Source of the DNA: Methanobacteriota archaeon
Lineage (GTDB): Archaea; Thermoplasmatota; Poseidoniia; Poseidoniales; Poseidoniaceae
Assembly: GCA_009936765.1 (NCBI GenBank)
Contig: JAACDL010000171.1
Coordinates: 1-33,726, forward strand
Length of the DNA: 33,726 nt
Direction of reading: 5' to 3'
The notes below the pieces were generated by a model, which worked only from the letters and a program-made list of their open reading frames with translations, did no database searches and was not told the origin of the DNA. Of the stretch, positions 14,511 through 25,154 are shown piece after piece. The stretch's first letter is position 1. Each line of letters opens with the position of its first letter. The position numbers were made by a program, and so were the translations under genes.

Positions 14511-14641
14511 TCGGTTAAGAACGCTGTATAGGGCCGCTGGACACTGATGGTAATTGACAGTCTTCAAGCATTGTGGTTCGAACTGAAATTGAAGCACCAC
14601 CCATGCAAATCCTCTTGAGCCACCGACGCACACTCTTGCTT

Positions 14642-17212
14642 ATGACCCCTGTGCTAACCCACCCTCGTCTCTGCGATGGTGTTGAAGCTAGGGCGTACCA
14701 ATTAGCGGCAGCAAAACAAGCCATCTCAGGCTCCACACTACTTGTTATGCCGACTGGTTTGGGAAAAACTGCTGTTCAATGGATGGCTATGGCCGAGGCT
14801 TTGGACGGACCTGGTAAGATCGTCTTAGTAGCCCCAACCACAGGACTTGTAGCCCAGCAAGCCAAGATGGCAAGAGAGTTCGTGAATTGCGATGATGAAC
14901 TTATCGTTACCCTTACTGGTCAAGACCGCCCTGCCAAAAGAGAAGTAATTTGGAAAGATGCCAAGATAGTTATGGCTACCCCCCATGTAATTAGAAACGA
15001 TGCGAGGAATGGAAGAATATTACTTTCTGAGATTGACTTACTAATCGTAGATGAGGCACATCACGCAACAGGGTCTGATTCAATGGCACAGTTAGGCGAT
15101 ATGTATCTTGAATCATCATCGAAAGCCCTAGTTTTGGCTGCGACTGCGTCCCCCGGTGTGAAAGCAGCGAAAGTATTGGAAGTGATTCAGCGACTAGGAA
15201 TTGAAAGATTACATGTCACAAAAAGAGAAGATGATTTAGTTCAACCGTACATCACATCGATGGAAATTGAAAAACATGAATTGAATTTACCTGATAAATT
15301 GTTAGAGATTATTCGCCCATTAAGAATTCTTGAGGCTGAAGAAGCAGAGTTTCTAACTAGAGGAGGTTTTCTTGTCAAGGCAGGTAGAATCACGACTGCT
15401 GCTATCGAAGAGGCACATAGAAGAGCTAGTGCCGCTATTGGGCGTGGAGATGCTAGAGGATATGATGCTGCCAAAAGAATCGGTGATATTCGAAGATTAC
15501 ACCGTCTGCTAGATTTGCTAGACACTCAAGGCCTCAAGTGTGCAATAAAATATCTTGAAAGGGCTAAAATGGAGAAAGACCGCAAGACCAAGAGATTTCT
15601 ATCATTATCCCCTGTTGCCGACCTTCTCAGAGAACACAGAGATAGCGAAGAACTTCATCCTAAACCACACTTAGTACTAGATTTAGTAAACAAAGGATTA
15701 GAGAATGGTGGCAAAGTGATTATTTTCACAGAGTATAGAGATACTGTTGATAATCTACTGCAGATTCTGGATTCGGAGTCAGGTATCAAACCTGGTAGAT
15801 TTGTTGGACAAACCACTAAAGGAAGTCAATTGGGAATGAAACAAAAAGAGCAGATTGCTCAACTGAACAGATTTCGAGATGGAGAAATCAATGTACTTGT
15901 AGCTACAAGCGTAGGTGAAGAAGGGTTAGATGTTCCAGCAGCAGATAGTGTGATTCTGTACGAGCCGGTCCCGAGTGCCATTAGAGCCATCCAAAGACGT
16001 GGAAGAACTGCAAGACAGAAAGATGGTGATGTTCACATATTATTGGCGAAGGGAACTAGAGATGAGTATGTCCAACAGGCATCATTGCGTCGTGAACAAA
16101 TGATGTACAGAACTCTAGATTCACTACAGAAGCAATCTAGGTTACCAAGAAGGTCACCCCCTAATTCTGATGTCTTAGCATCATTCACAATTGATGGAAG
16201 TAATGCTGAAGACTTCATTGAATCTGAAGAAAAGAGACTTTACCGCAAAAAAGAAACTATTCAAGATAAACCAAAAGCGAAAAAGAAAGTTGAAATACAG
16301 ACTGAACAACCTCTGAATCGACCAAGAAATCAACGCTCTTTAGCAGATTTTGCTTCCACGAATGAAGAAACTAAACCTGTTGATTGGTGGAAACCAGTAT
16401 TGGATGGAACTGAAACACACACCAGAGAAAATGAGGCTAAAGTCGCAGCTGCTGCTCAGACTGAAGTTAATTCACTGAGCGTTGAAAGAGATTCTGAAAC
16501 TCTGATTACAATAGATCACAGAGAAGCGAATTCAACATTACCAGCGATGCTCAAACTTCACGGTCACCAAATAAGCCTGGAAAACCTGACTATAGGCGAC
16601 ATTAGAATTTCAGATCGGATATTGATTGAAAGAAAAAGCGCTAGAGACTTAGTAGATTCATTGATTGATGGAAGACTAATCCATCAAGCTAGAAGGTTAC
16701 ATAGTGCAGCACCCAGACCATTATTGATTGTTGAATCAAATGAAACTCAAAGGGTCCATCCTAATGCGATCCATGGAGCAATGGCCTGGATAACATTAGA
16801 TTTGGGATTGCCAGTAATAATGACTGGTTCGCCTGAACAAACTGCAAGATTTGTTTCCATTGCTGCTAAAAGAGAGGCAAGAGTTCTGGATTTACTAATG
16901 ACTCATTCCCGAAGAAGCCCAAAAGACGCAGAAAAGTCTGCAATTAAAGCCGCATCTTCCGAGATCATGTCAATAATTAATGGTGATATAGAGCACGGGG
17001 TTTTGTCCAAGAAATGGGACCAAGAAGTTCTGAAACAACGCACTAGAATACTCGGTGAATTACCGGGAATTGGACCCAAAACCGCTGAAAGAATTATGCA
17101 AGCATCCAAGGACATAATGGGATTATGTGCCATGAGTGAGCACGAACTGACTCAGATAGATGGAGTGTCTTCGATTCAGGCTAAAGACCTGTTCAAATTC
17201 CTTCACGGTTAA
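14642..17212 (+). CDS. hef: Hef-type DEAH helicase / XPF-family nuclease
   Basis: Helicase motifs MPTGLGKTAVQW, DEAHHATG, ATASPG, QRRGRTAR. XPF nuclease core DHREANSTLP...RILIERKSARDLVDSLIDGRL. C-terminal HhH: LGELPGIGPKTAERIM. ORF is open from 14573; Met at 14642 (MTPVLTHPRLCDG) is the likely start. Confidence 0.93.
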   Translation: MTPVLTHPRLCDGVEARAYQLAAAKQAISGSTLLVMPTGLGKTAVQWMAMAEALDGPGKIVLVAPTTGLVAQQAKMAREFVNCDDELIVTLTGQDRPAKREVIWKDAKIVMATPHVIRNDARNGRILLSEIDLLIVDEAHHATGSDSMAQLGDMYLESSSKALVLAATASPGVKAAKVLEVIQRLGIERLHVTKREDDLVQPYITSMEIEKHELNLPDKLLEIIRPLRILEAEEAEFLTRGGFLVKAGRITTAAIEEAHRRASAAIGRGDARGYDAAKRIGDIRRLHRLLDLLDTQGLKCAIKYLERAKMEKDRKTKRFLSLSPVADLLREHRDSEELHPKPHLVLDLVNKGLENGGKVIIFTEYRDTVDNLLQILDSESGIKPGRFVGQTTKGSQLGMKQKEQIAQLNRFRDGEINVLVATSVGEEGLDVPAADSVILYEPVPSAIRAIQRRGRTARQKDGDVHILLAKGTRDEYVQQASLRREQMMYRTLDSLQKQSRLPRRSPPNSDVLASFTIDGSNAEDFIESEEKRLYRKKETIQDKPKAKKKVEIQTEQPLNRPRNQRSLADFASTNEETKPVDWWKPVLDGTETHTRENEAKVAAAAQTEVNSLSVERDSETLITIDHREANSTLPAMLKLHGHQISLENLTIGDIRISDRILIERKSARDLVDSLIDGRLIHQARRLHSAAPRPLLIVESNETQRVHPNAIHGAMAWITLDLGLPVIMTGSPEQTARFVSIAAKREARVLDLLMTHSRRSPKDAEKSAIKAASSEIMSIINGDIEHGVLSKKWDQEVLKQRTRILGELPGIGPKTAERIMQASKDIMGLCAMSEHELTQIDGVSSIQAKDLFKFLHG

Positions 17213-18073
17213 TCATGAACCAATCATCATTGCACGAGTCTTGAGTTGTGCAAACCTATCAGTAAAGTGGCCCAGTGCAAAGGCAACAATCTCGGTGAAG
17301 TTTACCACTGGGATGTTTGTGTCTTTGTTAGCAACACGTCCTGCCTTCCCTTGGTACGAATCAAGGTTTGAATGGGACTGTGTACAAGCACTTACAAGAA
17401 TTTGAGCCCCTGCTTTCTTAGCATCATTTAGAACTCTAGCAGTCATTTTCATTACTGAATCACCAAGAGATAGAAGCGAAGGATTGCCTACACTAGAGGT
17501 CTTACTCTTGTATTCGACAGGTCGGCCTCCTAAAGCAGTGATTAGCCTCTCCATGTAATCTGGGTTCCATGGATCATCGCCTCCGCATGCGCCTTTCATT
17601 TGCATGTGAGGTCCGTAGTAGCATGCGATATCTAGATCCAATGGATTTACAACTGCTGCTTCTACTTTATCCAGTCCAATCTCATCAACTAATACATGAA
17701 GCAAGTGATTTGTAGAGATTTCAGAGGAATCAAGAGTCATTCCAGTAGTTCTCTCCAATACACGATTTGCATTTGCAAGAGCGATTGGGTCATTCTGGAA
17801 TGTCTCAAGTGAATCGTGAAGGATACCTTGAGCTGAAGCGCATGCTGTGATAATTTCATGCCCATTCATCTCAGCCAGTGCAAGGTTTCTTGCGTTTAGT
17901 GCTAGTTGTAGTTCCTTGTTGCCTTGCTTGATTATGTTTCCACCATCACCGTTGTAACCAACTATCTCAATCAGTTCAATCCCAAGACTGTTGCACAATG
18001 GCTGGATTGTATCCTCTACTTCTCTGGAAGATTGGCGGGCTACATTTCCGGGATAATAAGAATATTTTACCAT
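17213..18073 (-). CDS. HdrB/SdhE/TfrB C-terminal-like (CCG domain) protein with most Fe-S ligand cysteines substituted
   Basis: Fold landmarks YSYYPGNVARQSSREVEDTIQPLCNSLGIELIEI, ITACASAQGIL, DIACYYGPHMQMKGACGGDDPWNPDYMERLITALGGRPVEYKSKTSSVGNPSLLSLG, ILVSACTQSHSNLD. The CCG doublets are GD and SV. Start is coupled to the upstream gene's stop (TGAGGTGAAACTATG). Confidence 0.75.
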   Translation of the reverse strand: MVKYSYYPGNVARQSSREVEDTIQPLCNSLGIELIEIVGYNGDGGNIIKQGNKELQLALNARNLALAEMNGHEIITACASAQGILHDSLETFQNDPIALANANRVLERTTGMTLDSSEISTNHLLHVLVDEIGLDKVEAAVVNPLDLDIACYYGPHMQMKGACGGDDPWNPDYMERLITALGGRPVEYKSKTSSVGNPSLLSLGDSVMKMTARVLNDAKKAGAQILVSACTQSHSNLDSYQGKAGRVANKDTNIPVVNFTEIVAFALGHFTDRFAQLKTRAMMIGS

Positions 18074-18082
18074 AGTTTCACC

Positions 18083-20050
18083 TCAGAATCTCCGATCAAG
18101 TTCGTTGAAGATTGCAACAACTTGGTGATGGTTAGCAACTTTGCCATTGAACATGTTAGGAATTTTACCAATTCCTGCAGGAGGAACAAGCATTCCTTGG
18201 AAACCTCTCATTAGAGGACCGCCGTTTCTAGTAAATCCTAGCATCATCCTTAACGAAACACCATTCATTATGTTGGAACCAAGACCTAGAGGTCCTAGAA
18301 CCGAGCGATATAGTGTCGTTTCATTCACATTCCCGGACATCTTTACAGAACGTGAGTAGGCCTTGACCAATCTACCACTCTTACCTGAGAACTTGAATTC
18401 TGCAAGCAGTCTTGCTCTTGCTGCATAGAGGGAATCTGCAGCCTGTGAACCATCAATTCCATGCCTGTTGATAGATGAAATATCTGCTTCATCCCAAACT
18501 CCACCTTTCCCTTGCATTAAGCCAAACATCTTCTTGACGTGAGAATCTCCTGAGCGAGGGTCTTGGCTTCTGACCCATCTTTGCAAAGCAATTCCTGGAC
18601 CAGAATATACGTTGTCAACATCATAGGTGTCTGACATTGCATTGATCAATTGGAGTGAGCCAACATCCGCTAAAGCATGAAGTGAAGTTGCATCTGCAGA
18701 GTTCATAACTCCCATTGGAGCGCCGCTTGCTAGTCTTTCACCCTGACGAGGATCAGCTTCTAACCATGGCTTTGAATCTACACGTGCTATGTCATAGCGG
18801 TCGTAAGAAACCATCAAATCCTTTAGAACTTCATATCCAGGGACTGGTTCAACTGTTAGTGTACTACCATTGCCTACCAAATCGCAAATCCTTGTTGTGT
18901 CAGCAGGTACGATTCTACCATTTGCTTTAACTCCAGTAAGAGGGTTCATTCCAGCAATATTACCACTGCGGAAAGTTAGAGAGCCATCTGCCTCTCTCTT
19001 TACTGCAACTAATGCATCTTCAATAGTCGCATGCCCTGGCAATGCCACTGCAATAGTATCGTATCCCGATTGAGCCATAATTGGGTCGTATCTGAATATG
19101 CGCATAGTCAGTGAGATTGGAGCATGGAGAATACTTGGAGGACTGAAGTCTCCTTCATCCGCACCATCATCTTCATCGCCTGCTCCATAAGCAGTCATTG
19201 CTTCAACCAGATCTTCATGGAACACTCCAGTTGAATCGACACAAGCGATTCTAGGAAGAACTTCTGCTACCCACTGGCTCCAAGGCTCATCGAAATCAAC
19301 ATCGCACATTTTCATTGCAACTATTCTAGTTGCACCGAGTGCTGCAAACTTCTCATCCCAATCCTCTCCTGCTTTACAGAATTCATCGTAAGATGAGTCA
19401 CCGATTGCGCAAACCGAATAGTGAACGCCAGATAGGGAAGGATTGGATGCACTTGTAGCGTTCCAAAGTTCTTCAGCATTATCTGGCATCTCGCCTTCTC
19501 CCCAGGTGGAGGTGATTATGAGGATTCTCTTGTGTGATGCAAATTTTGACTGGTCGTAAGCATCCATGTCGATTACAGTTGGTTCCAAACCATAAGCAAC
19601 TGCAAGCTTAGCCGTTTTCTCAGCCAGACCTGCTGCATTTCCGGTTTGTGAACCGAAGAATATTGCTAGGCTACGGTCTCCTGAAAGAACACCGGCTAGA
19701 ACGCCCGCATCAGAACCAACATCAGCGACTGCTACAGGAACTGCTGCAACTTCAGCGGCAGGTGCAACTTCTTCAGCAACTGCTTCTGCAACTCCGCCTT
19801 CGTACTCGAATTTGATAATCTCAACCGGACAAGCATCTGCTGCTTCTTCAATCAATTCAGAATATTCTGCGCGGAACTCGTTTTTAATCGAAGAAAATCC
19901 GATGTTGCGATCGAATGAACCATCTTCACGAACATCCGCTTTGATGTAACTTGTATCGTCAGTTACCTCAAAAACTTCTGGCAAAATATCCTGACATGCA
20001 TCACAAGTGATGCAATCTTCCTCGATCCAGACCTTAGCGACGGTTGGCAT
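18083..20050 (-). CDS. Ferredoxin-flavodoxin-(SdhB/TfrB-N-like) fusion protein
   Basis: N-terminal monocluster ferredoxin (CITCDACQDILPEVFEV...DACPVEII). Flavodoxin domain with FMN loop FFGSQTGNAAGLAEKTAKLA and STWGEGEMPDNAEELWNA...AIGDSSYDEFCKAGEDWDEKF. C-terminal SdhB-like scaffold MRIFRYDP...YDTIAVALPGHATIEDALVAVKREADGSLTFRSGNIAG...VKANGRIV...GYEVLKDLMVSYDRY...PWLE...GPGIALQRWVRSQDPRSGD...GGVW. Confidence 0.78.
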   Translation of the reverse strand: MPTVAKVWIEEDCITCDACQDILPEVFEVTDDTSYIKADVREDGSFDRNIGFSSIKNEFRAEYSELIEEAADACPVEIIKFEYEGGVAEAVAEEVAPAAEVAAVPVAVADVGSDAGVLAGVLSGDRSLAIFFGSQTGNAAGLAEKTAKLAVAYGLEPTVIDMDAYDQSKFASHKRILIITSTWGEGEMPDNAEELWNATSASNPSLSGVHYSVCAIGDSSYDEFCKAGEDWDEKFAALGATRIVAMKMCDVDFDEPWSQWVAEVLPRIACVDSTGVFHEDLVEAMTAYGAGDEDDGADEGDFSPPSILHAPISLTMRIFRYDPIMAQSGYDTIAVALPGHATIEDALVAVKREADGSLTFRSGNIAGMNPLTGVKANGRIVPADTTRICDLVGNGSTLTVEPVPGYEVLKDLMVSYDRYDIARVDSKPWLEADPRQGERLASGAPMGVMNSADATSLHALADVGSLQLINAMSDTYDVDNVYSGPGIALQRWVRSQDPRSGDSHVKKMFGLMQGKGGVWDEADISSINRHGIDGSQAADSLYAARARLLAEFKFSGKSGRLVKAYSRSVKMSGNVNETTLYRSVLGPLGLGSNIMNGVSLRMMLGFTRNGGPLMRGFQGMLVPPAGIGKIPNMFNGKVANHHQVVAIFNELDRRF

Positions 20051-20165: not shown

Positions 20166-21794
20166 TCACATGTGGAAGTCGTCCATTCCACCCATCATAT
20201 CGCCGCCAGATACTCCCTTTGAAGATATGACATCATCGATACGTAGAATCATAATCGCTGTTTCTGTTGCAGACTGAATCGCCTGTTCGACAACTCTCTG
20301 AGGCTCTAAAACATTAGCCTCAAACATGTCCATCACTCCACCCTCTTCAACATTGATTCCAGAGTGTACTTTACCATCTGCGTGAGACTTCCTCAATTCG
20401 ATGATTGTTGTAACCGGATCTAAACCTGCATTTTCTGCAAGAGTTCTAGGAATAATTTCTAGTGCACTAGCGAATGCTTCGATTGCCATTTGTTCGCGTC
20501 CGCCAATAGATTCAGCGTAAGCACGTAAGTCACGCGATAGTGCTGCAAGCACACTTCCGCCACCAGTAAGAACAGCGCCATCTTCCCATGCTACAGAAAC
20601 TACTCCAACCGCATCGTCAAATGCTCTACGGATTTCATCAACAACGTGTTCAGTTCCACCACGAAGTAGAACAGATACGGACTTTGCTTCAGGGCATCCT
20701 GTAATGAAGGTCATATCCGACTCACCAATCTTACGCTCTTCGACTTTGGCTGCTGCGCCAAGGTCTTCATGAGTCAAGTCGTCAATGTTGGTTACAACAC
20801 GACCGCCTGTGGCTTTTGAAAGTGCTTCCATGTCACTCTTCTTGGCACGTCGTATTGCGAATATTCCTGCTTTGGACATGTAGTGTTGAGCGAGGTCATC
20901 AATTCCTTTCTGACACACGATAGCATTTGCACCACTTGCGATGATCTTTTCTACCAATCCTCTAATGTAATTCTCCTCTTCTTCTAGGAAAGATGCTAGC
21001 ATTGAAGGGTCTGTAATCTGGATTTTCGCATCAACCTCTGTCTTCTTGACTTCAATTGCGCTGTTAATCAATGCAATCTTAGCACCTGAAATTGAGCGTG
21101 GCATACCTGCATGAACTCTCTCCTTATCGAGAATAATTCCATCAACTAAAGAGCTGTCCTTGATTGAACCACCCTGGCGCTTCTCAACTTTGATATCTGA
21201 CAAATCAACCATTCTTTCTCCATCTTCGATGGTACCAACTGAATTGACTGCTCTAACACAAATGTCTGCTAAGAATGACTTAACAGCACCTGCAGATTTA
21301 CCAGTAAGAGAAGTTTTGGCAACTTCCATTAGCACAGCATCATCATTCTTGGTTGAAATACCGTGAGATTCAAGGCAACCAACTGCTTTTTCCGCAGCAA
21401 GTCTGAACCCTTCACAGATGACAGTAGGATGTACATTCTGATCGATAAGATCTTCCGACCTTTTCAATAGTTCACCAGAAAGAACGACCGCTGATGTAGT
21501 GCCATCATAGCAATGCTGTTCCTGGGTTTTAGCTACTTCGATAATCATCTTAGCAGCAGGATGTTCGATGTCCATTTCTTTCAGAATCGTAGCACCGTCG
21601 TTTGTGATAACTACATCACCCATGCTGTCAACTAACATTTTGTCCATGCCTTTTGGTCCAAGAGTGCTACGAACAGCATCTGCTACAGCCTTGGCTGCTG
21701 CGATGTTGTTTGATTGAGCACTACGGCCACGAGTTCTTTGAACTCCATCTTTTAGAATGAATATCGGTGCTTGTCCATTTCCGTACATATACAA
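20166..21794 (-). CDS. thsA: Thermosome subunit (group II chaperonin)
   Basis: [68 protein letters not shown]...[15 protein letters not shown]...[19 protein letters not shown]...[10 protein letters not shown]. Whether alpha or another paralog cannot be judged from the window alone. Confidence 0.95.
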
Positions 21795-21851: not shown

Positions 21852-24800
21852 TCACATTTGGTTGTCAAGCCATTGCTGACCATAGTGACCCCATTGCTCC
21901 ATCGTCCAGCCCTCTGGAAGGCCTGCTGCGGGCACAGGAGGTCCAGTTTGAACCTCCGGTGTTTGAGCAATTTGTGGAGGAGGAGCTATCTCTGGGACTG
22001 ATTTTTCCATGGAGCCAATTGATGGAGCCGATGCGACTGCGCCGTATGTCGCAGAAAGGTTGTCTTCATACCCATCATCGTTCCAATCTTGTTCTTCTTC
22101 CTCTTCGCCATTGATTACAATTAGTAATACTCCAAGTAAAGTAATAATTAGAGCACCTCCGACTACCCATATTCCAATTCCAACCCAATCCCATGAGTCT
22201 GAACCAGATGATGCTGAATCACTGCTGCTTCCAGATGTGCTCTTTAGAGTGACAGATAGTTCCAGTGAGGCTGCGTCTTCAACAGAATTAGAAATCGCCC
22301 ATATCTTGACATTTGTTTCGATGAAATCATCATCAAGGGTCTCTAGAGTTGAACTCTGAACCTCGAATACAATGGTGACCTCTCTCTCACCTTCAACTTC
22401 AAGCCAGAAATCACGGTCAGTGGATTTAACTCCAGCACTGTACCAACGATTAGTTCCTTGTTGGTCCATTGACATGGATACAGATTGGCCTTCAGTATAC
22501 TGATTTCGAACACGTACTACTACCTCATAACGACCTTCTTCATCAATAATTGTAGATTCGGTTGAAATGATACGAAGCCAATTCTGTGAACCTACTCTGT
22601 ATGTACACTTACCATCAGAGGAAACTGTGTCATCATTTACACTGGTTGCGATGACCTTCAGAATTAATTGGCCATTGGTGTCATCATCGAAAGTGAAAGT
22701 TACTGTAACGTTGTATGAGGCACCAGGCTCTAACTGTGGAGTGATATCCCCTTCGATTAGTTGTTCGAATTCAGCATTCATTCCTTCAGGGACATCCAAT
22801 GACATAGTAAAACGATCAGGCTTATTCCCGTCGTTCGTAACTTCCAAGCGCATTGACTGTGAGTCGTCACCAGGTATGTATGATTGGTCGGCGTCTTCAT
22901 CTGACACAGAAACTGCTGCGGTGTCTGTAACATCGACATTGATTGTTATCTGCTCCATAACTGTTGGATCATCCAAACTTGTAGCGGTGACACGGGCCGT
23001 GTAGAGCCCAGGTGACAAACCAACAGGCATAGGAAGATTTAGAGCAATGCTAGTCTCTCCATCCCATGCATCGAGAATTGGAGTTTCGTCTGCTGAAAGA
23101 TATGCTTCTAGTCTCCAATTTGATTGTACAAGGTTTAGAGAATATGCCTCATCATCATTACCTAGATTCAATATGTCTATGTAGACGACTCGAGAGTTGC
23201 CATTCGCTGCTGCCTCGATCTCTAACTCCTCAGCGCTCATTGTAAATTCTCTAAGAACTGGAACTTCAATCTTCTTTGAAATCACATCATTACCGAATAA
23301 AGACTGGCCGCATGAAGGGCAAACTGCTCTAAGAGAGAATGGAACATCACCAGGTAGTTCATCATAAGGTGCTGTTACATTCAGAAGTAATTGAACTTCC
23401 TCGCCTTTGTCTAGAGGCATAGGCATCTGGACAATACTATGATTCAAGTCTGTTACGAACGAGACCCATTCCGTATTTTGGAAATTCGATGTGATGGTGT
23501 ATCCTGCTTCCCTGTTTCCAGCATTCTGTAATTTGAATGGAATGTCAGTGGTTTCTCCAGGGAGTAATGATGCTGCGAGTAGTGGAGCTGTTGATGATAG
23601 ATGCACACCATATTGCTCAGTAATTGCAATATCAGAAGTTACTCTTCCTAATTCTCCTAATTGAGTACCACCAGCATCTTCCCACCAGACTTGCCAAACT
23701 TGCTGTTGAACATCTGCACCTGCTGGTATTGATAGGTTAATCCACATTTCAGAAGTATTGCCTCCAGGAATGACAGGTAGAACAACGTTGGTTCCGTGCT
23801 GTGTTGGATTGTCACTGTCAATTCTAATCATTGGAAGGCTAGGGTTCATCCAAGTTGTGTTTGAAACATTTGATTGTAGACGCACCTGTGCGCCCATGTA
23901 ACCGTTGTTTGTGATAGTACAAAACATTGGAATGATTGTGTTAGGTGGTGTTGTATAACCACCTGTTGGGTCATCACATTCTACATCCAAAGTAAATTCG
24001 CTTACCTTTTCGATACCAAACATCACGAAGTCATCAACATGCATTCCACTTGAAGCACCTGAGCCATCTGACTGGAACAATATTCCGTAAGACCATGAAT
24101 GGCCTCCTAACTGATCTGTTGGATCCCAAGAGATGCTACTCCAAGAACCGGGAGTAGTGCTTGGGATATCTTCGACAAAGTTGTGATAGATCGTGCTTTC
24201 AGGAGCACCGTTTCCTCTCCACAATTCCAGAGCGACCATGTCTCCAGCACCCATCTGCCCCCAGGTTTGAACGTGCATTTGAGCCGAGACTAAACCTGCA
24301 GAGTTGAGTTGCACTTTGCACATCCACTGGATGTATTGTTGAGAAAGACCCCCATCCAATGATGCTCCATATCCACAATTACTGTCTGCGCCACGGAAAG
24401 CGAATACTAGGCGGCTACGAGATGCTGATGGGTAATCTGAACCGGAGTTTGAATGACGCCAGTTGGCAGACCCTACTGCTGAAGTAGAACCATCTTCTTG
24501 CCAGATTCCAATACCGTTAGCATCACTACCATCGATTGGATATTCGCCACCATAAAATGTAGACTTTGATGCGGCAGGAAGAGCTTGGTCACGAGGATCT
24601 CCTTCTGCATCCATGTCATCTTGAGCTAATGCAACAGGAAGTGATTTTTCCATAACATCGTTTTCATTTCTATCATCTGCAGAGTTGAAAACTGTTGCTC
24701 GAATGATTATTCCACCAGACAATTCATTGGTTGAAACATCCAGAGAGGAATGAGCAACACTTGCGGTGTATGTGAAGGAATCGATGTGCGATTGTCCACC

Positions 24801-25154
24801 GAGCATAGGAACTGTTTCCCAAGAAGTTGAATTCATTATGAATCCAATTGGATGAACCATGTCAACAAAAACCGTCGAACTGGAACCAGTTAGAGCTCCA
24901 CCTCCACGCTTTACTTCGACCGAGATGTCGACAATGTCACCTTTTGCAACATAGACTACTACGCTGCCATCAGGTTGCACCCAATGGTTGGCCTCTGAAG
25001 AATTAACCATGATTTCTGCAACTGAAAAGTCATCAGAAGAGCCACCCCTACCGGAGGTTGCTTCCACATTAGATGTGGATAATAGCAAAACGGATTGCAT
25101 GAGAAGAATGGTCACCAATAGGAATGGTATCGACTTGCGCATGTGCATCAACAT
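21852..25154 (-). CDS. Large secreted, membrane-anchored surface protein with Ig/CARDB-like repeats
   Basis: Signal peptide MRKSIPFLLVTILLMQSVLLLSTSNVEA; repeated beta-rich segments; C-terminal TM WVGIGIWVVGGALIITLLGVLLIVI; acidic and Pro-rich cytoplasmic tail ending LPEGWTMEQWGHYGQQWLDNQM. Confidence 0.75.
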   Translation of the reverse strand: MLMHMRKSIPFLLVTILLMQSVLLLSTSNVEATSGRGGSSDDFSVAEIMVNSSEANHWVQPDGSVVVYVAKGDIVDISVEVKRGGGALTGSSSTVFVDMVHPIGFIMNSTSWETVPMLGGQSHIDSFTYTASVAHSSLDVSTNELSGGIIIRATVFNSADDRNENDVMEKSLPVALAQDDMDAEGDPRDQALPAASKSTFYGGEYPIDGSDANGIGIWQEDGSTSAVGSANWRHSNSGSDYPSASRSRLVFAFRGADSNCGYGASLDGGLSQQYIQWMCKVQLNSAGLVSAQMHVQTWGQMGAGDMVALELWRGNGAPESTIYHNFVEDIPSTTPGSWSSISWDPTDQLGGHSWSYGILFQSDGSGASSGMHVDDFVMFGIEKVSEFTLDVECDDPTGGYTTPPNTIIPMFCTITNNGYMGAQVRLQSNVSNTTWMNPSLPMIRIDSDNPTQHGTNVVLPVIPGGNTSEMWINLSIPAGADVQQQVWQVWWEDAGGTQLGELGRVTSDIAITEQYGVHLSSTAPLLAASLLPGETTDIPFKLQNAGNREAGYTITSNFQNTEWVSFVTDLNHSIVQMPMPLDKGEEVQLLLNVTAPYDELPGDVPFSLRAVCPSCGQSLFGNDVISKKIEVPVLREFTMSAEELEIEAAANGNSRVVYIDILNLGNDDEAYSLNLVQSNWRLEAYLSADETPILDAWDGETSIALNLPMPVGLSPGLYTARVTATSLDDPTVMEQITINVDVTDTAAVSVSDEDADQSYIPGDDSQSMRLEVTNDGNKPDRFTMSLDVPEGMNAEFEQLIEGDITPQLEPGASYNVTVTFTFDDDTNGQLILKVIATSVNDDTVSSDGKCTYRVGSQNWLRIISTESTIIDEEGRYEVVVRVRNQYTEGQSVSMSMDQQGTNRWYSAGVKSTDRDFWLEVEGEREVTIVFEVQSSTLETLDDDFIETNVKIWAISNSVEDAASLELSVTLKSTSGSSSDSASSGSDSWDWVGIGIWVVGGALIITLLGVLLIVINGEEEEEQDWNDDGYEDNLSATYGAVASAPSIGSMEKSVPEIAPPPQIAQTPEVQTGPPVPAAGLPEGWTMEQWGHYGQQWLDNQM

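Follow-up and report, generated by a model that had tools for sequence, protein, structure and literature searches.

The two genes studied here raise the question of what role is left for an SdhB-like and an SdhE/HdrB-like protein that have lost the ligands of their Fe-S clusters and are joined to ferredoxin and flavodoxin domains. They lie on a contig of a 1.74-Mb MAG, called the window in the following, by which we mean the whole stretch of DNA analysed (33,726 nucleotides). We refer to the protein in which ferredoxin (Fd) and/or flavodoxin (Fld) domains precede an SdhB-like domain without cluster ligands as the B protein, and to the SdhE/HdrB-like protein as its partner. The relevant features of the window are:

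18083..20050, minus strand: gene of the 655-aa B protein (whole gene, intact ORF)
19811..20023, minus strand: ferredoxin domain, aa 10-80 (Pfam Fer4_13, 3e-10)
19286..19669, minus strand: FMN flavodoxin domain of the CysJ/P450-reductase type, aa 128-255 (Flavodoxin_1 6e-31, cysJ 1e-37)
18086..19138, minus strand: SdhB-like domain at aa 305-655, cluster ligands absent (Pfam, NCBIfam and PDB-profile matches)
18899..18973, minus strand: lost [2Fe-2S] site, now FRSGNIAGMNPLTGVKANGRIVPAD (alignment of 60 orthologues)
18656..18712, minus strand: lost first CxxCxxC..CP site, now GVMNSADATSLHALADVGS (orthologue alignment)
18446..18502, minus strand: lost second Cys cluster site, now GVWDEADISSINRHGIDGS (orthologue alignment)
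17213..18073, minus strand: SdhE/HdrB-like partner, 286 aa, intact ORF, both CCG sites broken here
17942..17950, minus strand: replaced first CCG motif, GDG at aa 42-44
17486..17494, minus strand: second CCG motif changed to SVG, aa 194-196, gone in every sampled orthologue
20166..21794, minus strand: thermosome subunit encoded upstream in the same orientation, a conserved neighbour that is listed for its synteny and not counted as a component of the device

A preliminary description of the locus, made from the sequence alone, had called the Fd and Fld domains of the 655-aa protein intact and had recognised an SdhB-like layout behind them, and both statements hold. The Fd, with a motif for one [4Fe-4S] cluster (CxxCxxC...CP; C13-x2-C16-x2-C19...C74-P), and the Fld exceed the Pfam cut-offs, and so does the C-terminus for Fer2_3 (5e-9), which in addition matches NCBIfam SdhB subfamilies (8e-12). 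A profile built from 30 orthologous C-terminal domains found the iron-sulfur subunits of SDH in the PDB (6e-16) and, over 310 columns that take in the tail, could be aligned with a cysteine-complete SdhB from archaea. The overall fold and sequence of a complex II iron-sulfur subunit are present in the 655-aa protein, the tail of which is poorly modelled by AlphaFold (pLDDT 71 and pTM 0.40 for the protein). The orthologue alignment also agrees with the replaced motifs as first quoted and with a single cysteine, C389, in the SdhB-like region.

The gene of the partner follows after a gap of 9 nt on the same strand, and translational coupling of the two is plausible. Its assignment as HdrB/SdhE-like was borne out by profile matches to SdhE (2e-33), HdrB (9e-32) and HdrB in the PDB (1e-25), and the AlphaFold model (pLDDT 89) superimposes on 5odc_B with a TM score of 0.87; the 286-aa protein has a bona fide SdhE/HdrB fold. 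Five cysteines are left in it. From the 10-Cys motif of the CCG family, which forms two five-Cys sites, the window partner has no complete site, the first CxxC being broken as well (C78xxA81), even though C78 is retained in 59 and C230 in all of 60 partner orthologues.

In order to see when the ligands disappeared we compared the orthologues. The ligand cysteines for the three Fe-S clusters of SdhB are conserved in none of 60 aligned SdhB-like domains, and the second CCG site of the partner is gone in 60 of 60, nearly all of which read SVG instead of CCG. Of the first site, six genomes retain all five cysteines (C10, C42, C43, C78, C81) and a seventh misses only C78; counted in this way, seven relatives have one site and none of those sampled has two. 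These seven fall in both families of the tree, f1 and f2, and elsewhere the CCG became SCG in most of f2 and S/G-DG in the family of the window. A search for retained cysteines in orthologues, as proposed beforehand, thus found none in the SdhB-like domains and the first CCG site in a few partners. The partner-only tree had placed the cluster-less members together. When the ligand columns are masked, a tree of the SdhB-like domain and the partner splits into the two families (97/98), and on it the lost state of the first site takes at least two changes, ruling out the single coordinated replacement that had been suggested at the outset. As the seven genomes retaining the site belong to both families, the stripping of clusters is, judged from these alignments and trees, stepwise and parallel; the simplest history would be one in which the order's ancestor still had one cluster site, which both families later shed. 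The 60 orthologues and their dN/dS values rule out local degradation or a sequencing artefact, and since a separate SdhB in the genome of the window has 13 Cys, the loss of cysteines is neither general in this genome nor caused by sequencing.

The B protein was found at the search threshold in all 61 related genomes searched; the SdhB-like part was matched in 60 of them, the match in the remaining genome (G012) being to flavodoxin only. The partner is present in 60 of the 61 and in 20 of 20 genera. G012 is without the pair and has an Fld-fused reductase of the kind described below; it is 59% complete and the absence may be only apparent. In a wider draw, counted by hand at E < 1e-50, about 163 genomes carry the SdhB-like domain out of 172 from the order, which we take to be, very probably, Poseidoniales (Marine Group II) with Marine Group III as its sister order; the 23 genomes of the sister order gave nothing beyond weak matches at the level of canonical SdhB. 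The pair has the same neighbours in 38-40 of 40 loci, where a gene for a secreted protein and the thermosome precede it and a convergent Hef-type helicase and rpl3 follow, and in these 40 loci no SdhA gene adjoins the pair. The Hef-type protein (14573-17212; DEAD helicase, ERCC4 nuclease and HhH) converges on the pair with no gap, and its longest frame is just about 580-600 aa in many f2 relatives. Upstream of the thermosome, an 1100-aa protein without Pfam match (21852-25154) is kept in 39 of 40 loci and has a signal-like stretch at its N-terminus and a hydrophobic one at its C-terminus. Values of dN/dS (NG86) are mostly 0.03-0.1 for both B and partner, with dS saturated in most pairs; in the unsaturated pair (G026) they are 0.05 and 0.08 for the two proteins compared to 0.05 for the thermosome. 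By these substitution rates the pair is under strong purifying selection, and the earlier view of maintained rather than decaying genes is upheld.

To trace the origin of the pair we searched 296 genomes of the phylum, where the best outside matches of the partner are SdhE proteins of acid-soil Thermoplasmata (1e-66 to 1e-73), Ca. Lutacidiplasma among them; their genes stand in SdhA-SdhB-SdhE operons in which no cysteine is missing. Such operons hold the nearest cysteine-complete homologues of the pair, and the same E-type ('non-classical') SdhABE layout, that of a succinate:quinone or 8-methylmenaquinol:fumarate reductase, has been described for Wolinella (PMC2680327). The pair shares with E-type complex II of Wolinella and of the Thermoplasmata operons (L174-L182) the SdhB and SdhE folds, the gene order B then E and an alignment over the full length, SdhB tail included; it differs in lacking the SdhB cluster cysteines, in having at most one SdhE cluster site and in the Fd/Fld domains fused to SdhB, whereas the SdhA paralogue of the order is encoded elsewhere and misses the residues of the dicarboxylate site. 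We are highly confident that the pair derives from an E-type SdhB-SdhE pair. The TfrB/SdhB-HdrB-type scaffold of the preliminary description was correct as to the homology, and its source can now be named more precisely as SdhABE. With HdrB of heterodisulfide reductase (5ODC, 8RVV) the partner has the fold in common, but in the window both noncubane cluster sites are broken and no HdrA is adjacent. The genuine SDH of the order, cysteine-complete as the proposed co-occurrence check revealed, is encoded at a separate locus (anchor-SdhA-SdhB) of the same genomes. As the pair has no clusters, it is predicted to have no succinate/fumarate:quinone activity.

A clue to its function comes from the carrier domains. 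Among 59 B proteins we found the architectures Fd-Fld-B (37), Fld-Fld-B (16), Fld-B (5) and Fd-B (1), three assignments having been set by hand after inspection. The idea that only Fd and FMN cofactor motifs are left thus applies to the clade of the window, and elsewhere the Fd was repeatedly swapped for a second flavodoxin. The single Fd-B protein (L080, G046) has no flavodoxin and occurs with a bare reductase; the Fld may be dispensable or lost in assembly. An Fld-Fld-B protein with very divergent flavodoxins (L064, G030; branches 0.6-0.8) represents an apparently independent loss of the Fd in family f1. A 997-aa Fld-Fld-SdhB-HdrB frame (G039) was seen once, with an incomplete SdhB tail and possibly a frameshift, and was not counted as a fusion.

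A CysJ-type FAD/NADPH reductase (FNR; FAD_binding_1 and NAD_binding_1) is also encoded in 57 of the 61 genomes. It is bare in most, and in 12 genomes that have a B protein it carries a flavodoxin of its own, the fusion in G038, where the gene lies at a contig edge, being deduced from its length and a flavodoxin fragment on another contig. In all 12 Fld-FNR genomes, which are related and do not represent 12 independent events, the B protein is without Fd, compared to 6 of 43 genomes with bare FNR, where the Fd is kept in 37. The correlation is one-directional, as these six carry Fld-Fld-B together with a bare FNR; the five genomes whose B has a single Fld all carry Fld-FNR. In a tree of the flavodoxins, the Fld of FNR forms the sister of the first Fld of Fld-Fld-B from f1 (100/97), and the first Fld of G060, in f2, falls together with it (94/92). 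Within one genus, a flavodoxin of this group sits on the reductase in G055 and on B in G060. This domain shuffling suggests that FNR interacts directly with the first domain of B, be it Fd or Fld. Next to the reductase gene lies one for biotin carboxylase, whether FNR is bare or carries a flavodoxin (L236-L239, L241-L270). FNR also occurs in the sister order, where the pair is missing, which implies another role there.

From these comparisons we propose, with a probability of about 0.55, that the pair is a platform for Fd and FMN carriers linked to NADPH through FNR. It would go back to the SdhB and SdhE subunits of an ancient E-type complex II, which ceased to move electrons through their own Fe-S clusters and became a docking platform. 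The separate FAD reductase FNR would oxidise NADPH and pass electrons to the first carrier domain of B (Fd, or the flavodoxin replacing it), from there they would reach the FMN of the second flavodoxin, and this flavodoxin, carried on the SdhB-like/SdhE-like scaffold, would be offered to an acceptor. The likeliest acceptor would be an FAD-binding SdhA paralogue that lacks the dicarboxylate site, or else a quinone or an enzyme that binds to the SdhE-like partner, and the reverse direction, from Fd to NADP+, might also be possible. Electron delivery had already been considered in the preliminary description, and as an inference it now gains indirect support from the link to the NADPH reductase.

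Could the scaffold instead have a different task? We regard it as very improbable that it is a decaying SdhB-SdhE relic retained solely for its useful Fd-Fld part. The loss of every SdhB ligand, the stepwise loss of those of SdhE and the lack of an adjoining SdhA gene would fit, but the SdhB-like part and the partner have dN/dS values near 0.05, similar to or somewhat above that of the thermosome, both frames are open across the sampled genomes, and the SdhB-like tail and many partner positions are highly conserved. Metal binding by unusual ligands, e.g. Zn or a cluster held by C78, C230 and nearby Ser/His, is unlikely: these two nearly invariant cysteines do occupy equivalent positions in the two halves of the partner and seven genomes retain the first CCG site, but the SdhB-like domain has no conserved Cys, and every partner orthologue has lost the other ligands of its second CCG site.

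Pseudo-subunits often turn into regulators, and with a genuine SDH in the same genomes and a thermosome next to the pair one might think of an assembly, maturation or regulatory factor for this SDH or another complex, using the complex II-like shape as template. The fused intact Fd and FMN carriers and their shuffling with the NADPH reductase imply redox work, though, and we consider such a factor quite unlikely. The similarity of flavodoxin and FNR to CysJ would also point to sulfite reductase or another partner system of the kind known for CysJ. Diflavin reductases of the CysJ and NADPH-P450-reductase type share the FMN domain and have the FAD/NADPH domain as a separate or fused gene; here, however, the flavodoxin sits on an SdhB-like scaffold, and a PF01077 sulfite/nitrite reductase domain was found in none of 11 genomes (control genomes positive in 11 of 14), which speaks against sulfite reductase as partner and makes the whole explanation extremely improbable.

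Coming back to the NADPH-linked carrier platform, a further candidate for it is a divergent SdhA paralogue (FAD_binding_2 and Succ_DH_flav_C). By a hand count about 161 of the order's 172 genomes have it, and at the level used for this count it is absent from the sister order. It keeps the glycines of the FAD fold and the C-terminal ESRG-H-R-D motif, and the active-site His and Arg motifs are gone, with QFHPT, HYxMGG and the Arg of HGANRLGGNS replaced. In pairwise comparison it scores best with SdhA of SdhABE operons (147-196 bits), compared to 140-155 with the order's own SdhA and 83-100 with NadB, and in the tree it sits on a long branch. A second SdhA-like match is NadB, and L-aspartate oxidase was set aside as partner. 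The paralogue gene (G000:C112:1084-2703, L288; also L286, L287, L289, L302-L331) lies beside HIT-family and acyltransferase-like genes. Only tentatively do we suggest it as partner of the pair, the link of this genomically unlinked gene consisting of homology and phylogenetic profile. It is doubtful, but conceivable, that A, B and E of the E-type complex were all rebuilt together into a new order-specific, NADPH-driven redox machine by discarding active sites and Fe-S clusters and installing flavodoxins. If so, the whole device would be iron-free in the Fld-Fld-B or Fld-B lineages.

Under the terms tried we found no description of the pair in the open-access literature, and for Marine Group II only canonical complex II is mentioned by Tully 2019 (PMC6336850). 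Complex II subunits are textbook Fe-S proteins, and here an order-wide, selected version exists from which the clusters were removed stepwise. This progressive loss and the Fd-to-Fld swaps look like stepwise iron saving, and the saving of iron may plausibly have been the driving force. The replacement of clusters by flavodoxins would be a natural experiment in the rewiring of electron-transfer chains and may show how iron is saved in archaea that probably live in the surface ocean. With the swap from Fd to Fld occurring in step with an Fld on the NADPH reductase, a specific redox partnership becomes testable.
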